Part shown: positions 25,400 through 49,347 of the stretch, one piece after another
Numbering within the stretch: the stretch's first letter is position 1
Layout: every line of letters starts with the position of its first letter
Assembly: GCF_000020005.1 (NCBI RefSeq)
Contig: NC_010718.1
Location: forward strand, 2,376,001 to 2,440,000
Length of the DNA stretch: 64,000 nt
Reading direction: 5' to 3'
From: Natranaerobius thermophilus JW/NM-WN-LF
Lineage (GTDB): Bacteria; Bacillota; Natranaerobiia; Natranaerobiales; Natranaerobiaceae
Notes under the pieces: generated by a model
Databases searched by the model: none
Told to the model about the DNA's origin: nothing
Seen by the model: the letters and a program-made list of their open reading frames with translations, nothing else
Translations under genes and position numbers: made by a program

Positions 25400-27550
25400 T
25401 TAGGGATCAATTAAAAAACCCAGTCTGCGTCCTTCGCGGTTTAACTTGACAATGGCGGCCCTGGCAGTTTTCATATCTTTAGTGATTTTCTCGCCTATAA
25501 ACAGGACCTCTCCAGTAGGGTCCTGTTTTTTTCTGCCGGCTCGTCCCGCCATTTGAATCAAGGTTCGACTATCGAATATTTCATGATCTGCAAACAGAAC
25601 CACCACTTGAACTCCTGTAACTGTAATCCCCCGCTCCATGATCGTAGTTGTCACCAAAATATCTATTTCGCCATTATGAAAATCCAGGCGCTTTTGGTCC
25701 CTGTCAGGGTCTTGAGAGGACACCCCGGAAACCACGGCCTGTGAAATTTTCTTGGTCCTTTGTTCGGAAATTTGTTCCCAGTGAGGCTGCTGATGGGCTT
25801 TTAATTTAAGCCAGTGGGACAGAGCCCGGCAAACTTTTTCCACCATATAAACAGAAGGGACAAACACAAAGATTGGCTTTACACCAGTGTTTTTTAATAA
25901 TAATTTCTCTAGTTGATCATTTAGAAACAGGGTTTTTTTGGTGCCTTTTAACAATTTTGGTTCCGGTGCTGGATAGCCATGATACCTGGCCGGGATTGTA
26001 ATCAATTCCGGTGGATTTTCTTTCATGATAGGATTAAAAGGATTAGAAAAATTTGTGTGATTGGTATGATTAGAAAGTTCACGTCCCTTTCCCTGGATTA
26101 GATCTTTATGAGGTGTTGCCGTTATGTAGATAATTTTTGCTTCTGGCCCAGAATAATTCCAACTCTCCCTTTTAGGATATTGGCTTTTTTTGCGAGCCCT
26201 ACGAATTAATAAGGGTAATCGATCACTCCCGTGATAAGGAAAAGCATCTACCTCATCTAAAATCACCAACTCAAAGGCATCATAAAACCTCATAACCTGA
26301 TGAGTAGTGGCAATTATTAGTTCACCATCAGAAAATTTGTTTTTGCTGCCACCATAAATAGCTAAAATCTTGGTCCGGGGGAAAGCATTTTGCAGCCGCT
26401 CCGATAATTCCCGTACCAAGTCCCTCCGGGGAGTGGCATACAATACCTTGCCTCCCCGGTTTAATACAGATAGTACTGCCCCAAAGACGGTTTCTGTCTT
26501 ACCAGCACCGCAGACGGCGTAGATTAGGGCAGTAAGGGGCGAAGAAGAAGAAGAAGAGGAGGAGGAAGAGGAAGAGGAGGAACAGGAATAGGAATAGGAA
26601 GTATCAAAGCGATAAGAATTGAATCCCACAAATTTCTGGGCCTTTTCATAGGCTCGCTTTTGTGCCGGTGTCAGCTTAAAATCCAGGTTTAAAACATGTG
26701 AATCTTCTCCATTGTTGTTGACAAGACAGCTTTCTGGGAAAAGAAACAGGGGTGTGCATTCTGTGGACTCGCCCATCTGATAACATTCTCGACAGGAGTG
26801 ACAGTATCTACCACATCTGGGACAGGGATCTTCTAATTCCTCGATTCCCTCGATATTTGATAGCTTATCGGAGCCACAGCGTAGGCATATGCCCTTAGTT
26901 GAATTGTCGAGGAAGATTTTGTTACTGAGGTTTTTGCTGAAGGATTTAATTTTTGTGAAAAAAGTATGTTTTAGAATGATATGTTTTAGATCAGAACTTT
27001 CACCCTTTCTCTTTTTCGCCATAGAAGGCTTATCTGTTTGAAAAACTATATCAAGCAATTTCTGATAAGCTGGATGATGGGCTGATATGACTCCTGGAAC
27101 AATTATTGGATTTAAATAGATTAAGCTTTTAAATATTTCTTCTATTTCCCGTTCTAATACCTTTGGGCCTAAATCCTGGTTTCGGCCTTTCAATAAAGCG
27201 AGATCGGGTTGTATTTCAGACAATATTTCATTAAAAAACAGCGCCCTTCCCTGTAAGGCGCTGTTGTAGTCGGTTCTCACCTGATTATGTCCTTGTAGTT
27301 TTGTACTTGGGGCGAAGGGTAACAGCTCCCAAAAGGCCTGTCCCGAATCACAAAGTCGCCAAGCCTGGTTAATATCATATCCCTGAGATGGAATCTCGGT
27401 ATAAGATAAACACAGAGGCCTAATTTGGCAATCAAAGCGAAATATCCTTGGGGCCTTCATCTTTGGCTTCACTTTAGTTGTGCCACCTCTCCCATTGTCA
27501 ATTAAACCGACCGATTTATGATCCAAGTGAATCATAACTAATTTAAACAT
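25400..27550 (-). CDS. comFA: ComFA-like DEAD/DEAH-box helicase
   Basis: 716 residues. A four-cysteine-pair zinc domain (CLRCGSDK...CPRCGRYCHSC, about 222-252) precedes a superfamily 2 helicase: Walker A YAVCGAGKTE, DEVD box VILDEVDAF, ITATP motif, and motif VI QMAGRAGRK. This arrangement is that of ComFA, the ATPase that helps draw single-stranded DNA in during transformation. The first 200 residues are poorly conserved. A run of about 14 serines directly before Walker A is a lineage-specific expansion. ATG 27550 has only a distant AGGGAG site, so the true start is somewhat uncertain. Confidence 0.82.
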   Translation of the reverse strand: MFKLVMIHLDHKSVGLIDNGRGGTTKVKPKMKAPRIFRFDCQIRPLCLSYTEIPSQGYDINQAWRLCDSGQAFWELLPFAPSTKLQGHNQVRTDYNSALQGRALFFNEILSEIQPDLALLKGRNQDLGPKVLEREIEEIFKSLIYLNPIIVPGVISAHHPAYQKLLDIVFQTDKPSMAKKRKGESSDLKHIILKHTFFTKIKSFSKNLSNKIFLDNSTKGICLRCGSDKLSNIEGIEELEDPCPRCGRYCHSCRECYQMGESTECTPLFLFPESCLVNNNGEDSHVLNLDFKLTPAQKRAYEKAQKFVGFNSYRFDTSYSYSCSSSSSSSSSSSSSSPLTALIYAVCGAGKTETVFGAVLSVLNRGGKVLYATPRRDLVRELSERLQNAFPRTKILAIYGGSKNKFSDGELIIATTHQVMRFYDAFELVILDEVDAFPYHGSDRLPLLIRRARKKSQYPKRESWNYSGPEAKIIYITATPHKDLIQGKGRELSNHTNHTNFSNPFNPIMKENPPELITIPARYHGYPAPEPKLLKGTKKTLFLNDQLEKLLLKNTGVKPIFVFVPSVYMVEKVCRALSHWLKLKAHQQPHWEQISEQRTKKISQAVVSGVSSQDPDRDQKRLDFHNGEIDILVTTTIMERGITVTGVQVVVLFADHEIFDSRTLIQMAGRAGRKKQDPTGEVLFIGEKITKDMKTARAAIVKLNREGRRLGFLIDP
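26541..26601 (-). repeat. Serine-codon microsatellite inside comFA
   Basis: A GAA/GAG/GGA purine tract encodes about 14 consecutive serines plus a Ser-Tyr-Ser-Tyr stretch just before Walker A. The triplet periodicity keeps the frame, so length variation is expected to be tolerated. Confidence 0.8.
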
Positions 27551-35646: not shown

Positions 35647-36273
35647 TTATTTTGGTGATTTTATAGCAACTCCAATCCCTAGATAGTACTTTTTATCGGG
35701 AAGGGGCAGTTCAATCGTCTCGTCAAGTTGCCTGTATAATGTTACATTCTCAGAGCCGAAATAATCTTTCATGGTCCCTTCAAATTCTTCCTCTGTCAAT
35801 TGATGAACATGATAAGGATCATTACAAGGTTTATCTCGCCCTCTGCCAAAGGGAGTCGAAATAATTATAAGCCCTCCTGGTTCTGTCAAACGATACATAT
35901 TGGCTAGATACTGAGCTTCATCTTCCACATGTTCCATAGTTTCTAGACTGACAACACAATCAAAGGTTCCTAACTTTTCAGGTAAAGTTTCGTCCAAAGT
36001 GTCTCCAATTCGATAACTGACTTTGGGATTATTATAGTGATTCCGAGCGTATTCAATAGTTTCAGGGCACAGGTCTACACCCAGGACTTCTCTGACCTTT
36101 TGTGAACTTGCCAAAATTTTAGATCCGTATCCCACCCCACAGGCAATATCTAGTACTCTGCCCGTAGAGAATTTTTTGCTGAGCTCATATCTCGCAATAT
36201 GCTCAAGGAGTGTTCCATTGTTGGGACTCATTTTTTTCGGAATCACTCGTTCTTCCGTCTTTGCCCAGTTCAT
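35647..36273 (-). CDS. Class I SAM-dependent methyltransferase
   Basis: 208 residues with SAM-binding motif I RVLDIACGVGYGSKIL, an acidic loop VLGVDLCPE, and FDCVVSLETMEHVED, the pattern of a methyltransferase-11-type enzyme. TGAGGTG is upstream of ATG 36273. It converges on the Asp23 gene and is not in an operon. Substrate cannot be deduced; small-molecule or quinone/lipid methylation are equally possible. Confidence 0.8.
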   Translation of the reverse strand: MNWAKTEERVIPKKMSPNNGTLLEHIARYELSKKFSTGRVLDIACGVGYGSKILASSQKVREVLGVDLCPETIEYARNHYNNPKVSYRIGDTLDETLPEKLGTFDCVVSLETMEHVEDEAQYLANMYRLTEPGGLIIISTPFGRGRDKPCNDPYHVHQLTEEEFEGTMKDYFGSENVTLYRQLDETIELPLPDKKYYLGIGVAIKSPK

Positions 36274-36466: not shown

Positions 36467-36486
36467 CATTGTCTTTGTTTATGCAC

Positions 36487-36520
36487 AAACAAAAGTTGGG
36501 CATCCCATAGGATGCCCAAC
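36487..36520 (-). terminator. Terminator of the selenoprotein gene
   Basis: Perfect 11-bp stem GTTGGGCATCC/GGATGCCCAAC (36495-36520) followed on the minus strand by TTTTGTTTG. Confidence 0.8.
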
Positions 36521-36566
36521 TTCCTAAATAAACGTTGGTAATTATTAAGTAGTTAAGTTTGTTATA

Positions 36567-37412
36567 TTAATCGAAGTCTCCGAATTCACCGTCATGGGGG
36601 TCACCATGACATTCCGTACAGTCTTCTTTTCCCTGGCTTGGATATGGCTCGTTTTCGTGACAGGTCATACAATCATCAGCTACGGCTGCGGGAGCCATTT
36701 CTCTTACATAGCCTTCTTCATGTTCTTTATTCAACATTTCAACTACGAATTTTGCGGTATCAGCTGTAACTCCTGCACAGCGTTCTCCTCTTTCTTCCGC
36801 ACCTCTGGATTCAACACCTGCTACATTCATCCACTTAGTAACCGATACGTGACACAGACTAGAATTCACCTCAACCTGGGGTAAATCCAGTCCTGCAGGT
36901 TGATACTCAGGGAATGGGAACTTTTGATACCAGGCCATTAGTTCATCATTTAAATCCATAAATTTCTCTTCTTCATGTACCATGCTAATTATAGTTGCTG
37001 CCGGAGGTAATACACCACAGATTGAGCCCCATCCTGCAAGACCACCTCTAAAGGGCCAGAATGCCATAGTGGGAATTTGATCAAAAGGATAACCGACCTG
37101 ATCTTGCAGTTCGCCGAGGACCCCCTCGGCTAAACCATAACCTCATCCACCTTCAAAATAAGCGTGGTATGCCCTTTCGGCAACCTTGTCAGGATCTAGA
37201 GGTTGATATTCAAAGGGATGTTCTGGTACTTCTATCTTCGAGTCTTGAGAGTCTGCTGCAGCTCTTTCACCATCTTCAGCACATCCTGTCATTAATGATC
37301 CGAAACCACCCAATAGGGCAACACCTGCCACTGTAGTTCCAGCACCTTTCAGGAATTTTTTCCGTGATATCTGGGAAGTTTCGACCTGTTTGTTTGAATC
37401 TTCTTTTGCCAT
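36567..37412 (-). CDS. Split-Soret-type C_GCAxxG_C_C cytochrome, selenocysteine-containing
   Basis: 281 residues if the in-frame TGA at 37143-37145 (codon 90) is read as selenocysteine; otherwise it splits into two frames. The pieces are exactly in phase and give one coherent protein: Tat-like signal SRKKFLK (16-22), lipobox LMTGC44, EGG-U90-GYG, GSIC132G, C187, C212 (the C_GCAxxG_C_C redox pattern with the first Cys as Sec), and two heme-c sites CMTCH (248-252) and CTECH (265-269). This matches split-Soret cytochromes, exported electron carriers of anaerobes. ATG 37412 has GGGGAGGAG; an upstream start at 37508 is less likely. A SECIS-like hairpin follows the TGA. Confidence 0.85.
37113..37145 (-). 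promoter_or_regulatory. UGA codon and SECIS-like hairpin
   Basis: The TGA is at 37143-37145. Twelve bases on begins a perfect 6-bp stem GCCGAG/CTCGGC (37125-37130 and 37113-37118) with the loop GGGGUC. The loop starts 18 nt after UGA and opens with G, as bacterial SECIS elements require; its GGUC resembles the E. coli fdhF loop. Confidence 0.75.
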
Positions 37413-37758
37413 ATTTAACTCCTCCCCTCTAATTATTCTGTAAGACTCGATTTGCAATTGTTTCTTAGTAACTAATAGAGTTTCGAAAATTAGATAGTTA
37501 AAAACCATCTAATCTTTTTATTATTTAGTTTATTATGTTCATTATTATTTTATCTAATTTTTTATAATAATAATAGTTAGTTAATTCACTACTATAGACA
37601 GTTAATAAACATTTAAAATCACTCTAAATACAGGCGTGACAGTCTTTTGCTAATAGTGCGAATTTTCTGACCTCCATAAAAAACTTCTATTCCCATAACA
37701 TATTTGTATAACATTTTGAGGATTAATTAGGATTTATTGTTAACAATTGCCATGATAG
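37413..37758. other. Selenoprotein gene leader and AT-rich spacer
   Basis: About 350 bp between the selenoprotein start and the insertion sequence. No gene. It should hold the selenoprotein promoter, but no single strong sigma-A box was picked out. Confidence 0.3.
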
Positions 37759-37775: not shown

Positions 37776-39256
37776 TGTCAATGTTCTTTGAAAATGTCAC
37801 CTAAAAACGCATAAATTTGTTCAGAGAAAATGTCACCCCCCAGGAAGGTAGACCGAGTTTTAAACTCGGTCCCTGGTATTTAGTATAGTATCTAAAAGTT
37901 CTTGATCAGTCAGGTCGTAGTTAAGATTTGTTCTTTCACTTTGTTTTCTCCAAGGGTGATTTTCATCTGGGACTATTCTATTTTTAGGTGATTGCGTTGT
38001 TTTAACTTTTTTGGTCATTTTAGTAGTTGAAGGCTTGTCCACAATTTGAGTTTCAAACACCATATCTTTATATTTTACTTTAACTCCAAATTTAGGATTA
38101 GATAGGACAGTAACTTTAGATTTAGGAACCAGTTGACTATTTTTATCTAAAATTTGATAGTAACTTCCTTCAAAAGAGAAAGTGGCACTGTTGTCCACAG
38201 TTCTTTTGAATTTAGAACAAAGTATATGATCAAGATTAATATCTTGATTTAAACAGGTAAAAGCCGATAGCTCATTTTCGGGCTTTAGGGCAAATCTTTT
38301 ATTAAAATCAGGCAAGAAATCTTTTTGTAAAAATTCATTAGCTTTCTCCATGGTAGTTATATTGTGTAGCTTAAAAAGTGTGGGCAGTCTGCTTTGTAAA
38401 GTATCAAAAAGCCTTTCAACTCGTCCTTTTGCTTGTGGAGAGTTAGCAGGTATAATAGTGACTCCTAACTCTTCCATAGCTGCACCAAATTGAGTAGGCT
38501 TAACTTGTTTACCTGCGAGCTGTTCATCAATCGAAAGCTTGTCCGATTTAGGTGATCTAAAAATAGTGTGCTTATCGCTATAAAGACTTGCAGGAATACC
38601 ATAGTTTGAAATTAACTGATGCATAATCTGAAAGTATCCCTCAAGACATTCATTTTCAACAAAAAATAATCCTAGCAAAGCTCCTGTGGCATCATCGATA
38701 GCAGCGTGTAAATCACAATCAAAGCCAGTGTCAAACCAGTCATAAGGTGAGGCGTCTATTTGTACTAAAAGTCCCATTCTGTCCTTGCGTTTGCGTCTGT
38801 GGTGACTCTTACTCTTTTTATGTTTTTTAGGACTAGAAATTCCAGCTTTACTAAGAATTCTATGAACAACTGGCCTACTGATAGAGATTTTTTCTCGCTC
38901 GTTTAAAAGTTCTGTAAAATGAGTGAAATTTGCATTTGGGTATTTTTCTAACTTTAGAGAAATGATATGTTTTTCAGTACTTTCAGGAACAGAATGATCA
39001 GGCTTTTTACCTCGGCTTTTATGTATGACAAAACTGGGTCCTTCTAGTTGCACTCCTTTCTTCAGTCGTTTAATTTGTCGATCACTGAGGTTCAAAGCTC
39101 GTGCTGCATCTCTAATGGTTAAGTAGCCATCAATTGTTTGATTGATAATATTTAGTTTTTTAATTTCTTCTTGGGTCATTTGATATGTCACCTTTTTAGT
39201 CATAGTGACATTTTCACAGAACATTCTAGGGGTGACAATATCACAGAACAATTACA
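37776..39256 (-). mobile_element. Complete insertion sequence, IS1202/ISNCY-like, 1481 bp
   Basis: Terminal inverted repeats of 26 bp (37776-37801 and 39231-39256, about 21 matches, both beginning TGTNA and ending TGTCACC) enclose one intact transposase gene. A perfect 17-bp target duplication flanks it, which is long for an IS but known for the IS1202 group. Intact ends, perfect duplication and complete frame indicate a recent insertion, immediately upstream of the glnA -35 box. Confidence 0.9.
37860..39179 (-). CDS. ISNCY/IS1202-type DDE transposase
   Basis: About 439 residues. An N-terminal HTH (TIRDAARALNLSDRQIKRLKK) and a basic hinge (KKHKKSKSHHRRKRKDR) precede an rve-type core: VQIDASPYDWF, SLYSDKHTIF and NSPQAKGRVERLFDTLQ supply the D, D and E. 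ATG 39179 has AAGGTG nine bases upstream; frames further up run into the terminal repeat. The C-terminal beta region is complete. Family by motif and by target duplication length. Confidence 0.88.
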   Translation of the reverse strand: MTQEEIKKLNIINQTIDGYLTIRDAARALNLSDRQIKRLKKGVQLEGPSFVIHKSRGKKPDHSVPESTEKHIISLKLEKYPNANFTHFTELLNEREKISISRPVVHRILSKAGISSPKKHKKSKSHHRRKRKDRMGLLVQIDASPYDWFDTGFDCDLHAAIDDATGALLGLFFVENECLEGYFQIMHQLISNYGIPASLYSDKHTIFRSPKSDKLSIDEQLAGKQVKPTQFGAAMEELGVTIIPANSPQAKGRVERLFDTLQSRLPTLFKLHNITTMEKANEFLQKDFLPDFNKRFALKPENELSAFTCLNQDINLDHILCSKFKRTVDNSATFSFEGSYYQILDKNSQLVPKSKVTVLSNPKFGVKVKYKDMVFETQIVDKPSTTKMTKKVKTTQSPKNRIVPDENHPWRKQSERTNLNYDLTDQELLDTILNTRDRV

Positions 39257-39354: not shown

Positions 39355-40677
39355 ATGAAACCCGAAGATATTATAGCGGCGGTAAAAGAACATAATGTAG
39401 AGTTTATTCGTCTTCAGTTCACAGATATCACAGGTGTACTGAAAAACGTGGCCATAACTGTCAACCAGCTCGATAAAGCCCTGGACGGCGAATTGATGTT
39501 TGATGGTTCTTCTATTGAAGGTTTTGTCAGGATTGAAGAATCGGATATGTATTTAAAACCCGATCCTGATACTTTTATGATCTTCCCTTGGACAAACAAT
39601 GGAAGTAAAATTGCTCGAATTATCTGCGATGTTTACGATGCCAATCAAGAGCCCTTCATTGGTTGTCCCAGATGTACTTTAAGACGTGCCATCCAGGAAG
39701 CGGACGAAATGGGATATTCCATGAAAGTAGGACCGGAAAATGAATTTTTCTTATTCCACACTGGTTCCGACGGTGAACCTACCCTAAAAACCCACGATAA
39801 AGCGGGATATTTCGATCTAGCTCCCGTTGATAAAGGCGAAGAAGCCAGACGAGATATGGCTATAACTCTTCAGCAAATGGGTTTTGAAATAGAAGCTACT
39901 CACCACGAAGTTGCCCCAGGCCAGCACGAAATCGATTTCAAATATGAAGATGCCCTAAAAACAGCCGATATGATCGCCACATTCCGCTATGTTGTCAGAA
40001 CTATCGCCAAGCAACACGACCTTCATGCCACTTTCATGCCAAAACCCATCCAAGGTATCAACGGTTCCGGAATGCATGCAAATATTAGCTTATTTAAAAA
40101 CGGGAAAAACGCTTTTTATGATCCCGAGGATCCCAATGGACTTAGCCAAGAATGCTATTATTTTATCGGAGGTTTATTACAGCATGCCAAAGCTATGTCA
40201 GCCATAACCAATCCCACCGTCAATTCATTTAAACGTCTTGTTCCGGGATATGAAGCTCCTGTATATATTGCCTGGAGTGAGAAAAATAGAAGTCCCCTGA
40301 TACGAATTCCAGCAAAAAGAGAAACTTCTACCAGGGTAGAGCTTCGTAATCCCGATACTGCTTGTAATCCATATTTAGCTACAGCAGTTATGTTAAAAGC
40401 AGGCTTACATGGTATTAAGCACAAAATTGAGCCTCCTGCATCAATTGACAAAAATATTTATAATATGACTCCAGAAGAACGAAAAGAACTGGGAATTGAT
40501 AGACTACCTGAGAATTTATTGGAGGCATTGACTTACTTGCAAGCAGATGGTGTTATTCAGGAAGGTTTAGGCGATCATATCTACAAAAGATTCATCGATG
40601 CTAAAAAATACGAATGGCAGAGTTATACCGAAGCTGTTCATCCTTGGGAAAGAGAGCAATACTTGACTAAATTTTAA
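39355..40677 (+). CDS. glnA: Glutamine synthetase, type I-alpha
   Basis: 440 residues, the short GSI-alpha form. It makes glutamine from glutamate, ammonia and ATP. Visible signatures: [17 protein letters not shown] near the N-terminus, the catalytic/metal regions [10 protein letters not shown] and [15 protein letters not shown], the ATP-binding stretch [20 protein letters not shown], and [22 protein letters not shown]. The adenylylation-type insertion of GSI-beta is absent, so feedback control as in Bacillus is likely. RBS AAAGGGAGTG precedes ATG 39355. A fresh insertion sequence sits just upstream of its promoter and may alter its expression. Confidence 0.95.
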
Positions 40678-44932: not shown

Positions 44933-44964
44933 GGGAAGCAGTCTATGACTGCTTCCCTTCTTTT
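44933..44964. terminator. Shared terminator between amidohydrolase and fdhD
   Basis: GGGAAGCAGT/ACTGCTTCCC stem (44933-44957) with A-rich and T-rich flanks; the left side overlaps the fdhD stop, so it serves both convergent transcripts. Confidence 0.85.
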
Positions 44965-45719
44965 AGCTTAGGTTTAATTCTATCTGTATGACAGTAAAAA
45001 TATTTTTGGGTACGATGAGCACGGCCCACCAGGGTAATTCCAGCTGTTTCAGCAATTTCCAAAGCCATTGAAGTAGGAATACTTCGAGTAGCCACCAAAG
45101 GAAATCCTGCACCCAAGGCTTTAAGAACCATATCCGAAGATAACCTGCCCGTTGTAATTAATGCTAATTTTCCGGACTCATATCCTTTGAATAATGTTGT
45201 TCCTAGAAGTTTATCAATAGCATTGTGTCTACCTACGTCCTCTTGGACTGTCAATACACCGGACTCATTCACTAAAGCTGCCGAGTGTAGGCCTCCGGTT
45301 CTCTGGTATTCTACTGCCTGGCGATGCATTTCTGTAAAGGCCTCTTTTAAAACGGTCTCACTAAGCTCAAAGTTGGAATCAATCTTACGATTGACAATGT
45401 TCTCATTGTTTATAGCACTGCCACTTCCACAACCTGATGCGATGACTTTTCCAAGGGACAAGTCTTGTTCAGGCAATTCCTTGCCAATTTTAACATAAAT
45501 TTTACGCATGTCATCACAGGCTCCGATCATGTGGATATCAGCTATGGATGTAATCATTTGCCTTGCCAGTAAATGACCAACGGCTAGCTGTTTTAATTCT
45601 TTGGGGGTACACATAAAAGTTGTTAAATGCTGGTCATTTACTATTAAATCTACAGGGCGTTCCTCACTTACTGGTAGTTCTATTCTGTTAATAGTCGAGC
45701 CCCCCTTTAACTGTATCAT
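44943..45719 (-). CDS. fdhD: FdhD-family sulfurtransferase for pterin-enzyme maturation
   Basis: 258 residues. FdhD passes sulfur to the molybdenum or tungsten cofactor of formate dehydrogenase-type enzymes. TTGRLSSDMVLKALGAGFPL and ESGVLTVQEDVGRHNAIDK are family signatures. The active loop reads SGCGSGS (C97), so the second Cys of the common CxxC is replaced by Gly. Gap to the YdhW-like gene is 6 nt, and it lies at the end of the AOR operon, which suggests it serves the tungsten oxidoreductase or a distant formate dehydrogenase. Confidence 0.88.
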   Translation of the reverse strand: MIQLKGGSTINRIELPVSEERPVDLIVNDQHLTTFMCTPKELKQLAVGHLLARQMITSIADIHMIGACDDMRKIYVKIGKELPEQDLSLGKVIASGCGSGSAINNENIVNRKIDSNFELSETVLKEAFTEMHRQAVEYQRTGGLHSAALVNESGVLTVQEDVGRHNAIDKLLGTTLFKGYESGKLALITTGRLSSDMVLKALGAGFPLVATRSIPTSMALEIAETAGITLVGRAHRTQKYFYCHTDRIKPKLKEGKQS

Positions 45720-45725
45720 ATTAGC

Positions 45726-46334
45726 CTAGCCTTTAAGACGATACTCTATGTTATCGGCTAATTTAGCTGCATACCTCTCATTCATGTGTTGTTCGGAGTA
45801 CAAGTATTTAACTCCGTTAAAGGATGTCACTGATTTAATGTCTTGAAAGTCAGGATGCTTTTGCATATCTGACAGGATATCTTCAATTTCCTGTTTGTTC
45901 ATAAAAAAGGGAAATTTGTGAAACAAATTAATATTAGTCGGTCTGGGATACTTTTTACAATCTCGCCTTACTATTTCTGCCATCAAAGAAGGGTTGTCTC
46001 CTTCTTCTAGCTTAATTAACATATTAGCATATTCCGAAGTCATATACAATTCACTGATAAAGTACATTCCTTTAGCACCCTGTAATAATTTGATATCTTC
46101 ATTTTCCTCTGATTCTTTTATGGATATCAGTAGCTTCTTTGGTGTTAATTGATCACTTGAAAACTTATTTGGGGTATCCTCATTAGCTTGTAAGGAATTT
46201 TCAGAGGATGTCTCCTTTGTTAAGAGGGGGTCTATCAATGTGGCAGATTGGGTAAGGGTGCCCTTTTGTGAATTGTCTCGGATTTTTGTCACTATATTTT
46301 GTAATTGTTCATGAGATAAATTGGCAGCAGTCAA
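45726..46334 (-). CDS. AOR-associated protein, positional YdhW counterpart
   Basis: 202 residues from TTG 46334, which has AAAGGGGG six bases upstream; longer frames cross a G/C hairpin. Two similar segments, KGMYFISELYMTSEYANML and GVKYLYSEQHMNERYAAKL, indicate an internal repeat, each after a helical stretch. No cofactor motif is seen. Ferredoxin-AOR-this gene follows the order ydhY-ydhV-ydhW of E. coli, where the third protein is also about 200 residues and of unknown function. Homology is inferred mainly from position and size. Confidence 0.5.
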   Translation of the reverse strand: MTAANLSHEQLQNIVTKIRDNSQKGTLTQSATLIDPLLTKETSSENSLQANEDTPNKFSSDQLTPKKLLISIKESEENEDIKLLQGAKGMYFISELYMTSEYANMLIKLEEGDNPSLMAEIVRRDCKKYPRPTNINLFHKFPFFMNKQEIEDILSDMQKHPDFQDIKSVTSFNGVKYLYSEQHMNERYAAKLADNIEYRLKG

Positions 46335-46425
46335 GTTTATCCCCCTTTGATTTTCAGTGTTTTGTAAAACCAACATTTTCATACGTAAAATCGTTTTTGC
46401 TTTTAATGTGAAATGAAACAGATAA

Positions 46426-46443
46426 GGGGGGCTAGCGCCCCCC
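46426..46443 (-). other. G6C hairpin between the AOR gene and its downstream gene
   Basis: GGGGGGC (46426-46432) and GCCCCCC (46437-46443) with a 4-nt loop. In the intergenic space on the minus strand it could be a partial terminator or RNA-stability element reducing expression of the downstream genes relative to AOR. Confidence 0.55.
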
Positions 46444-46511
46444 GAATTTAAAACCATGTAATACTAAGTACACCAAAAATACTAAGTATACATTAAACGT
46501 ATTTGTTTAGC

Positions 46512-48614
46512 TTAGCTTGGAAGTAATCCTTGTTCCTCTAGTTCATCGGCTACATATCCTAAATCTAGTTCTTCTAAACATTCTCTAGTCGGAGCACCTG
46601 TTTCTTCATCCCAGCCCATTTCTTTATAGAATAAAGTAAGTGCTTTTTGCATATCGTCTCTATCCATCTTGATAGTTCCTTCTTCAAAGGGTTCCATATC
46701 CGGATCCATATCAAATACCCAATCACTGATAACATCGTGTTCGTTTCTCATGTCAGCGGTGTCCATCTGCTTAACAGTCAAGGCCCTATGCAGTGTAAAC
46801 ATTCTTTCTCCAAGTCTGTCCAATTCTTCTTCAGTATATTCTTCACCAGTAGCAACACTTAAGAATTTAGCTTCTAAAGCAGTGTCGCCACGATAATCCC
46901 ATTCTTTTCTTGGTGAAGCATGCATTGGCCACATCCAGTTACAGAGAGTTAAGGAATCATGAAGTAAGTTTCGAATGATGCTCCACTTTGCATATTTAGC
47001 CTTATATTCATTTACTGGTGTGTAATCAGCCGGTGGATCAATGGCATCTTTGGAGCCCACAATTTCTTCTACAATTTCTTCCTGAATTTCATGAGGAAGA
47101 CCGCTTCCCTGCAAGTTAACATGAGTGTGTAACTGGGCGTCTCTGTTAAACATACAGTTGATAAGTGCTCCTACCTGACCATATGTCTCATTGGAATGAT
47201 GCTGTGGATATCCGAATTTGTAGTTCCAAACAGAGAATAAGCCATAGTCATCTCCGTGCCAGTAATCGTCACCGAATTCCCATTCTGTCGCTACCCAATA
47301 GGAACCTTTGCCCATGGTCTCTCCAAATTTCCCTTCTTTAAAGGCAATACGGCGGTAAAAGTCTTTCAAGAAAGCTGGATCGCCATCTTCAAGTAAATCC
47401 CAGGGGATTTCTTCATATTCTTCTTCAGGAAGTACTTCTTCAAGTATACCATTTTCATAGGCATATTCGAAGTCCGCTACTATCAAGCAGTAGTTATCCC
47501 AGATACCATAATCATCTACCAAGTGTTTACCTAGTGTTCTGGCCATAAAGTCTCCTTCATCACTAGTTCCTTTAATCATCATTCGAGCAGGAGTGGCCCA
47601 CCCTACACAAGTATTACCTGAGTATCTAGAATAACCATGTTCTTCTAGCTGAGGGAACTCTACCCTTGCATGACATCTTACAGGGCAGGCATGGCAACCT
47701 CCCATTCTAACAGTATACTTCTCGGCAATGTCACCTGCATCAAATACAGCTTTTTGACATCTATAGCCGAGGCTATTAACATCATCGGGATGACATTCAC
47801 CTGTTTCTACCGGTGGATCAGCTGCTCCCCAGTATAAACCTGGCTTCCCTGTCCATCTACTGCCAGGATCATAATGTTCAGCCCATGGTAAAGGAGAGTT
47901 GGGAACTACATGCTGGTTGTTGGATCCAATGACTTTATTCATTTTTTGTTGTAGTTCACGCCACTCATTCTGGTCACCTGCTATATTAACAGGTTTAGTC
48001 CCGCGAATACCAATGGCTTTTAAGTTTTTTGAACCCATAACTCCACCATGGCCACCTGCAGAATGACTAAAGCCAGTCATTATGGTAGACATGTTCACCA
48101 TGTTTTCTCCAGCTTGTCCAATAGCGGCTACCTGGGCTGCTTCTCCCATGGCATTGTTGATTTCTTGAGTGGCTCGATAAGTACCATTTCCCCAAATACT
48201 ATCAGCCTCTTCAATAAATACATCATCATTTTCAATTCTCAACCATACTGGTTTGTCAGCCTTACCTTCTATAATGATAGCATCGTAGCCAGCAAACTTC
48301 ATTTCTGGGGAGAAATGTCCACCCATGTGACTGTCAGTTATTGCATTGTAAGGATTCAATGGTGACAGAGAAGTGATATTAGTTCTACCACTACAAGGCA
48401 TTCCTGTACCAGTTAATGGTCCAGCACCAAAAATAATTTTGTTCTCTTCATCGTAAGCTTTTGTACCTTTGGGAACTTCATCCCAAATAACTTTGTAACC
48501 AATACCCATTCCGCCAATATAATCTTTGTAATCTAGGGTGTCTTCCTTAGTTATTTCACCTGTGGAAAGATTCACCCTGAGTATCTTTCCAGCCCAACCA
48601 CCAGGGTTAGTCAT
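46512..48614 (-). CDS. Tungsten-dependent aldehyde ferredoxin oxidoreductase (YdhV-like)
   Basis: 700 residues, full length for the family. Such enzymes hold a tungsten bis-pyranopterin and one [4Fe-4S] cluster and oxidise aldehydes with ferredoxin. The cluster motif is GGCHACPVRC (C-x2-C-x3-C); GWAGKILRVNLSTGEI, GGMGIGYKVIWDE, SGRTNITSLSPL and AGYDAIIIEGKA are N-terminal AOR signatures. ATG 48614 has AAGGAGG 8 nt away. It has no signal peptide, whereas the preceding ferredoxin does. Substrate is unknown; the YdhV branch is uncharacterised. Tungstate uptake genes tupBC lie 4.3 kb away. Confidence 0.92.
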   Translation of the reverse strand: MTNPGGWAGKILRVNLSTGEITKEDTLDYKDYIGGMGIGYKVIWDEVPKGTKAYDEENKIIFGAGPLTGTGMPCSGRTNITSLSPLNPYNAITDSHMGGHFSPEMKFAGYDAIIIEGKADKPVWLRIENDDVFIEEADSIWGNGTYRATQEINNAMGEAAQVAAIGQAGENMVNMSTIMTGFSHSAGGHGGVMGSKNLKAIGIRGTKPVNIAGDQNEWRELQQKMNKVIGSNNQHVVPNSPLPWAEHYDPGSRWTGKPGLYWGAADPPVETGECHPDDVNSLGYRCQKAVFDAGDIAEKYTVRMGGCHACPVRCHARVEFPQLEEHGYSRYSGNTCVGWATPARMMIKGTSDEGDFMARTLGKHLVDDYGIWDNYCLIVADFEYAYENGILEEVLPEEEYEEIPWDLLEDGDPAFLKDFYRRIAFKEGKFGETMGKGSYWVATEWEFGDDYWHGDDYGLFSVWNYKFGYPQHHSNETYGQVGALINCMFNRDAQLHTHVNLQGSGLPHEIQEEIVEEIVGSKDAIDPPADYTPVNEYKAKYAKWSIIRNLLHDSLTLCNWMWPMHASPRKEWDYRGDTALEAKFLSVATGEEYTEEELDRLGERMFTLHRALTVKQMDTADMRNEHDVISDWVFDMDPDMEPFEEGTIKMDRDDMQKALTLFYKEMGWDEETGAPTRECLEELDLGYVADELEEQGLLPS

Positions 48615-48666
48615 CAGCAAAACCTCCTTGTCTGAGAGTGTAGTTTTGACAAGTATTTAACTACGA

Positions 48667-49347
48667 TTATGATAAGACCGATTCATGGTTTCTAATAGGT
48701 TGATCTTTGGACCTATCCTGCCATCTTTCTAAGCTTATAGCACCATTTGGACAGTTAGCAGCACACTGTGGATCACCATGGCACATATGACACTTAGCTG
48801 CCACATTATCATTGGGATCCATAGCAATCATTTCCCAAGGACAAGCATCCACACATTCACCACATCCAACGCATTCATCTTCATCAATAACTCTAGCCCC
48901 TGTTTCAGGATGGCTACCAATTGCGTTTTGGGGGCATACTTCTGCACACATTACTGGTTCTTCACACTGAATGCAAGTTTCTGGTATAATTCTGAAGTTG
49001 CCAAACAATCCCTCTCCATTCCAGAAGCCTAAAGTGGAGCTTTGTTGACCATAATTTTGATTTCGAGCAATTTTGATTCCCGAAACATTCGGGTTGGAAC
49101 TTCCTCGGTTGAAGACTGAGCAAATAGTTTCACACCGGCGACATCCTGAACACCTAGTGGAATCAACTACCAGCATATACTCGGAAGATGATAGATCTTC
49201 GCCGGCCTCAACACTGCTGTCTTTACCACATCCTGATAAACTTAGACCAGCTGCTGTCAAAGCTGCACCGGCACCACTAATTTTTAAGAATTTTCGCCTG
49301 TTAATAGGTGCTTTAATAATAGAAGTAAAAAAGTTGTTTTCTGACAT
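48667..49347 (-). CDS. Tat-exported four-cluster ferredoxin subunit (YdhY-like)
   Basis: 226 residues. A Tat signal NRRKFLK (17-23) with a lipobox LSGC precedes four [4Fe-4S] binding motifs: CSGCRRC, CIQC...C, CVGCGECVDACP and CHMCHGDPQCAANCP. It is the electron-transfer partner of the AOR-like enzyme, to which it is adjacent by 52 bp. A lipoprotein anchor outside the membrane would put the AOR partner there too, perhaps carried along with it by the Tat system (hitchhiking), since AOR itself lacks a signal. Confidence 0.88.
   Translation of the reverse strand: MSENNFFTSIIKAPINRRKFLKISGAGAALTAAGLSLSGCGKDSSVEAGEDLSSSEYMLVVDSTRCSGCRRCETICSVFNRGSSNPNVSGIKIARNQNYGQQSSTLGFWNGEGLFGNFRIIPETCIQCEEPVMCAEVCPQNAIGSHPETGARVIDEDECVGCGECVDACPWEMIAMDPNDNVAAKCHMCHGDPQCAANCPNGAISLERWQDRSKDQPIRNHESVLS

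Follow-up and report, generated by a model that had tools for sequence, protein, structure and literature searches.

A putative selenocysteine in an exported split-Soret family protein with two heme c sites from Natranaerobius thermophilus

The locus and its product

The window analysed here, a 64-kb stretch of the Natranaerobius thermophilus genome, carries on its minus strand a gene (36567..37412) which, translated with TGA as U, is predicted to encode an exported diheme selenoprotein of 281 amino acids; profile and fold matches assign it to the split-Soret cytochrome c / C_GCAxxG_C_C family. The gene consists of two frames, 37412..37143 and 37142..36567, which are in the same phase across a single TGA (37143..37145, minus strand). 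The preliminary description had read both frames as one protein, and the translation agrees, with U at residue 90. Upstream of the ATG at 37412, at a distance of 6 nt, lies the Shine-Dalgarno-like GGGGAGGAG (37419..37427, minus strand), while no ribosome-binding site was found in the sequence upstream of the internal ATG at 37067. A terminator-like hairpin of 15 bp is located 3' of the gene (36491..36524, minus strand; -25.2 kcal/mol for the fold of 36481-36545) and is consistent with a single transcript across both frames. The window was scanned for TGA-spanning coding frames, with a coding-like frame required on both sides and the codon usage taken from the window itself. The TGA at 37145..37143 was the sole case, which indicates that TGA serves as a stop elsewhere in the window.

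The N-terminal region (37281..37412, minus strand) contains a Tat-like signal, SRKKFLK, followed by the lipobox LMTGC. The Tat-like character assigned in the preliminary description held for the overall type, an RRxFL-type motif being present family-wide, but the motif itself has Arg-Lys in place of Arg-Arg. A tatC gene is present elsewhere in the host genome, and the sequence predicts export of the diheme protein with a lipid anchor. The two heme c sites anticipated together with the lipobox are the CxxCH motifs CMTCH (residues 248-252, 36657..36671) and CTECH (residues 265-269, 36606..36620), both on the minus strand and invariant in alignment A1. Equally invariant in this alignment are the minus-strand codons of Cys132 (SICG, 37017..37019), Cys187 (SLCH, 36852..36854) and Cys212 (ERCA, 36777..36779), the second, third and fourth cysteines of the C_GCAxxG_C_C set. 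Position 132 was Cys in all homologous copies spanning it.

Family membership, as first proposed, holds by sequence as well as by fold. The protein scored 52 bits against PF09719 (C_GCAxxG_C_C), above the cut-off of 27, with U90, C132, C187 and C212 at the pattern positions. Its score of 150.5 bits against NF047622, the NCBIfam model for split-Soret cytochrome c, lies far below the equivalog cut-off of 400 and marks it as a distant relative, so that a function of the Desulfovibrio protein need not carry over. The sole relative in a sequence search of the PDB was 1h21 (E 6e-30), the split-Soret cytochrome c of D. desulfuricans ATCC 27774, with a Cys aligned to U90. An AlphaFold model, built with Cys at residue 90, reached a mean pLDDT of 75, with good prediction between about residues 61 and 240; its only significant Foldseek match in the PDB was again 1h21 (prob 1.00, TM 0.77 by target, 31% identity). 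Homology to 1h21 in sequence and fold and the two CxxCH motifs strongly support membership in the broad split-Soret cytochrome c family. The two proteins share the fold, two heme c sites and the positions of four non-heme cysteines, but 1h21 has Cys where the window protein has the putative selenocysteine (Sec).

Recoding of the TGA at residue 90

The selenocysteine genes named in the preliminary description, selA, selB, selC and selD, were all found in the 3.19-Mb host genome. The tRNA-Sec scored 74.8 bits and has the anticodon TCA; the profile scores were 404.8 bits for selB, 614.5 bits for selA and 398.2 bits for selD. The selB gene adjoins selD, itself interrupted by a single in-frame TGA; SelD with Sec is among the known selenoproteins (PMC13188914). 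The single tRNA-Sec gene (L001, G000:C2:1218522-1221613) lies between two transposase-like ORFs, apart from selA and selB-selD. In the phylum survey described below, selA exceeded the cut-off in 17 of the 18 genomes with a Sec copy, the exception (G168) being a draft.

A survey of the phylum covered 399 genomes and gave homolog matches in 52 of them. The residue-90 column held TGA in 23 copies, Cys in 64 and nothing else, and other in-frame TGAs were rare in the homolog segments. A second survey addressed named genomes, with a 6-row alignment of closer sequences as query; it was seeded with Sec forms, and its yield of 30 TGA and 2 Cys among 32 copies is thus uninformative on the frequency of Sec. 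These copies came from Alkaliphilus, Sedimentibacter, Anaerosolibacter, Tissierella, Dethiobacter and several MAGs. Six copies were common to both surveys (L160, L163, L164, L169, L173 and L185), and after removal of duplicates about 113 distinct copies remained, about 48 with TGA and about 65 with Cys, none with another codon. Two Sec copies occur in one genome of the same order as the host (G002). A tree calculated without the residue-90 column indicated at least five switches between Sec and Cys, the exact number being soft because the tree was a quick one. The earlier proposal that the TGA replaces the first Cys of the redox pattern is thus matched by the family alignment, in which every homolog has Cys or Sec at position 90, with no other stop or residue.

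The surveys also returned exported homologs lacking the heme sites, with Sec at the same column (L162, L165-L184 and L219-L222), from Alkaliphilus, Sedimentibacter, Tissierella and Anaerosolibacter; their occurrence shows that Sec accompanies the redox domain rather than the hemes. In a small soluble C_GCAxxG_C_C protein (L139, G034:C66:11513-11893), U takes the place of the first Cys (GFNUAES). One Sec-type homolog (L025, G026:C27) contains an extra in-frame TAA and is cut by the contig end; it is perhaps a decaying copy. Tandem split-Soret cytochrome genes were seen at two loci, four genes in L210 (G211:C64) and three in L207 (G382:C4).

Downstream of the TGA, the minus strand at 37113..37130 can form a hairpin of the bacterial SECIS type (GCCGAGG-GGGU-CCUCGGC), assigned on its fold, its covariation and the bSECIS constraints. 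It starts 12 nt after the TGA, at the distance first described, and its apical loop lies 19 nt after this codon. The preliminary description had given it 6 bp and a GGGGUC loop; this form was recovered, together with an alternative of 7 bp with the loop GGGU (-17.2 kcal/mol, z -2.7). The hairpin alone folds at -12.8 kcal/mol, and its GGGU loop, 7 bp and 19 nt conform to the bSECIS model with constraints taken from PMC13188914. In the first survey 22 of the 23 Sec copies conformed to this model, as against one of the 64 Cys copies. Over the 45 nt after the codon, the mean minimum free energy was -15.6 kcal/mol in Sec copies and -8.4 kcal/mol in Cys copies, and the mean z from synonymous-codon shuffles was -1.87 versus -0.08 (p ~1e-8). 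Among 35 in-register sequences, 94.7% of the stem cells were paired. Three of the pairs together showed 15 double changes, a count reached in 0 of 500 shuffles; such counts overstate the number of events, since related sequences are not independent. Shifting the partner by one base lowered stem pairing to 47-58%. At one stem pair, a change from G-C to C-G coincides with a change from Glu to Gln in the protein. A search of the whole window with Rfam at gathering scores gave no match. Altogether, the fold predicted downstream of the TGA is a covarying, SECIS-like hairpin that agrees with the bSECIS model.

Readings other than Sec fare poorly against these data. A UGA translated as Trp, Cys or Gly through a variant code or suppression is highly improbable: a frame opened by reading through a stop does not in itself prove Sec, but the window uses TGA as a stop elsewhere, the host has the full Sec machinery and the bSECIS-type hairpin follows nearly all Sec copies of the first survey and hardly any of its Cys copies. 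There is just as little room for a true stop that ends the protein at residue 89, be it through two genes, a pseudogene or a sequencing error, for although the standard code yields two ORFs and the second in-frame stop of L025 indicates that decay occurs in the family, the same TGA recurs in many genera at the sole column where other copies have Cys, the downstream protein is conserved, the internal ATG lacks a ribosome site and the covariation is of the SECIS type. Gene splitting, pseudogene and variant code were therefore rejected on the conserved TGA/Cys column, the Sec machinery and the SECIS covariation. The Sec machinery, a column restricted to TGA or Cys, the bSECIS hairpin, the lone coding-frame TGA and the repeated Sec/Cys switches together argue for a selenoprotein, and we regard it as very probable that the locus encodes one exported two-heme protein of the split-Soret family whose UGA at residue 90 is recoded as Sec. 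In this reading SelB and tRNA-Sec would decode the UGA, directed by the hairpin downstream. Within the redox domain, the alignment strongly supports Sec in place of the first of four non-heme cysteines.

Gene neighbourhood

The gene is flanked in the window by a methyltransferase gene (35647-36273), a transposase-like gene (37860-39251) and a glutamine synthetase gene (39355-40677, assigned by translation). These neighbours gave no hint of a pathway, and no YeeE/YedE genes stand beside the window copy. Farther off in the window, translations suggest a row of fdhD-like, tungsten-type aldehyde ferredoxin oxidoreductase-like and Tat-signal ferredoxin genes (44943-49347), and a helicase-like protein with a long serine run (25400-27550).

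In many related genomes, genes for LysR, YeeE/YedE and TusA proteins, often with TatC, lie beside the homologs, whether these have Sec or Cys. This module was found at five heme-bearing Sec loci (L187 in G002, L189 in G307, L160, L163 and L164), at many heme-free Sec loci (L162, L165, L167, L168, L170, L172 and L174-L176, as well as in G056, G094 and G234) and at several Cys loci (L192, L195, L197-L199, L201, L204 and L207). In other Sec lineages (G012, G026, G034, G080 and G106) the adjoining genes were mostly without it. The neighbouring LysR proteins are nearest to NF040786, the model for a selenium metabolism-associated LysR; the protein at L192 scored 262.6 against a cut-off of 250, the one at L187 stayed below it with 219. 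The transporters scored to both YedE/FdhT (selenium) and TsuA (thiosulfate), below both cut-offs, and the TusA proteins to TsuB/YeeD, likewise below the curated cut-offs. Away from the locus in the window, the host genome has a YedE gene, with 469.8 bits against TIGR04112, and, at 2.61 Mb, a YedF-like gene.

YedE, YedF and LysR_Se were proposed as selenium genes, and LysR_Se and YedE track SelD across genomes (PMC5322559). Relatives of this system, namely LysR, YeeE/YedE and TusA proteins, flank many homologs of the window gene; a cytochrome is mentioned nowhere in that study, and the transporter and TusA neighbours seen here score below the curated cut-offs. The association of the gene family with a module of LysR, YeeE/YedE, TusA and often TatC is new here and offers a first clue to its function, which the conserved module may define.

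Relation to known proteins and possible function

Split-Soret cytochrome c has been known by structure since 2003, and to our knowledge there is no agreement on its function. Features that go with the broad family are a dimer with stacked hemes, a split Soret band and an iron centre. In the D. desulfuricans protein, cysteines reportedly bind a labile iron-sulfur centre. The PDB title of 1h21 speaks of 'a novel iron centre' in the Desulfovibrio protein.

Within the C_GCAxxG_C_C family (PF09719, TIGR01909), the small soluble member and the heme-free exported homologs share the U position with the window protein, which differs from that family by its additional C-terminal diheme region and export signal. 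Predicted C_GCAxxG_C_C selenoproteins have been listed as 'form 1' and 'form 2' (PMC13188914), and WP_012158890.1 perhaps belongs with the relatives that lack heme sites. Selenocysteine-containing c-type cytochromes were also listed before, as ExtKL multiheme cytochromes and octaheme cytochromes of the tetrathionate-reductase family (PMC13188914). Like the window protein these are c-type and carry one Sec, but by their listed domain identifiers they belong to other families and not to the split-Soret cytochromes. Selenoprotein inventories of 2022 and 2026 (PMC13188914) include C-GCAxxG-C-C proteins, and a split-Soret cytochrome is named in neither of them. Among the openly available papers searched, none had both 'split-Soret cytochrome' and 'selenoprotein'; a prior RefSeq annotation is possible.

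The preliminary description had called the position at residue 90 a catalytic-type Cys and supposed that Sec tunes the redox site. We infer as much from the invariance of Sec or Cys at this residue and from its place in a conserved set of four cysteines. The selenol of Sec90 would then form a redox site, possibly with iron, together with Cys132, Cys187 and Cys212, to which the two hemes might pass electrons. The protein would probably be lipid-anchored on the outside of the membrane, with a sulfur or selenium compound as its presumed substrate.

The role of such a site can be read in several ways. There is close to an even chance that Sec is present but the protein, unconnected with selenium uptake, serves thiosulfate or general sulfur metabolism or simply carries electrons; the YeeE/YedE neighbours score to TsuA and the TusA neighbours to TsuB/YeeD, and the module stands beside Cys forms too, but the best score of the LysR regulator is to the selenium-metabolism model, with the L192 protein above its cut-off, and LysR_Se and YedE track SelD (PMC5322559). 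We tentatively consider a reductase that is exported and acts on a compound of sulfur or selenium, in a module with the YeeE/YedE-type transporter, the TusA-type carrier and the LysR regulator; Sec would make its redox site more reactive or less prone to over-oxidation. A more specific proposal, in which Sec90 would be a direct ligand of an iron centre and the diheme protein would act outside the cell on oxyanions of selenium or sulfur, reducing them so that YeeE/YedE and TusA can take them up, seems unlikely as a whole. Still less can be expected of the UGA as a selenium switch, by which low selenium would leave a short lipoprotein of 89 residues and the redox domain would be made only with selenium: such an outcome is a general consequence of Sec decoding, and the short product would retain signal and lipobox, but Pfam and NCBIfam profiles recognised no domain within these first 89 residues.

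Annotation that treats the TGA as a stop splits or shortens genes of this kind. That several lineages have Sec at residue 90 singles this residue out as the reactive one, and since the neighbourhood suggests uptake of sulfur or selenium, the function is directly testable. If Sec touches an iron centre, this would be an unusual case of a natural, extracytoplasmic selenium-iron site. Should the protein reduce selenium oxyanions that YeeE/YedE and TusA then take up, a selenoprotein would help to supply the selenium from which selenoproteins are made.
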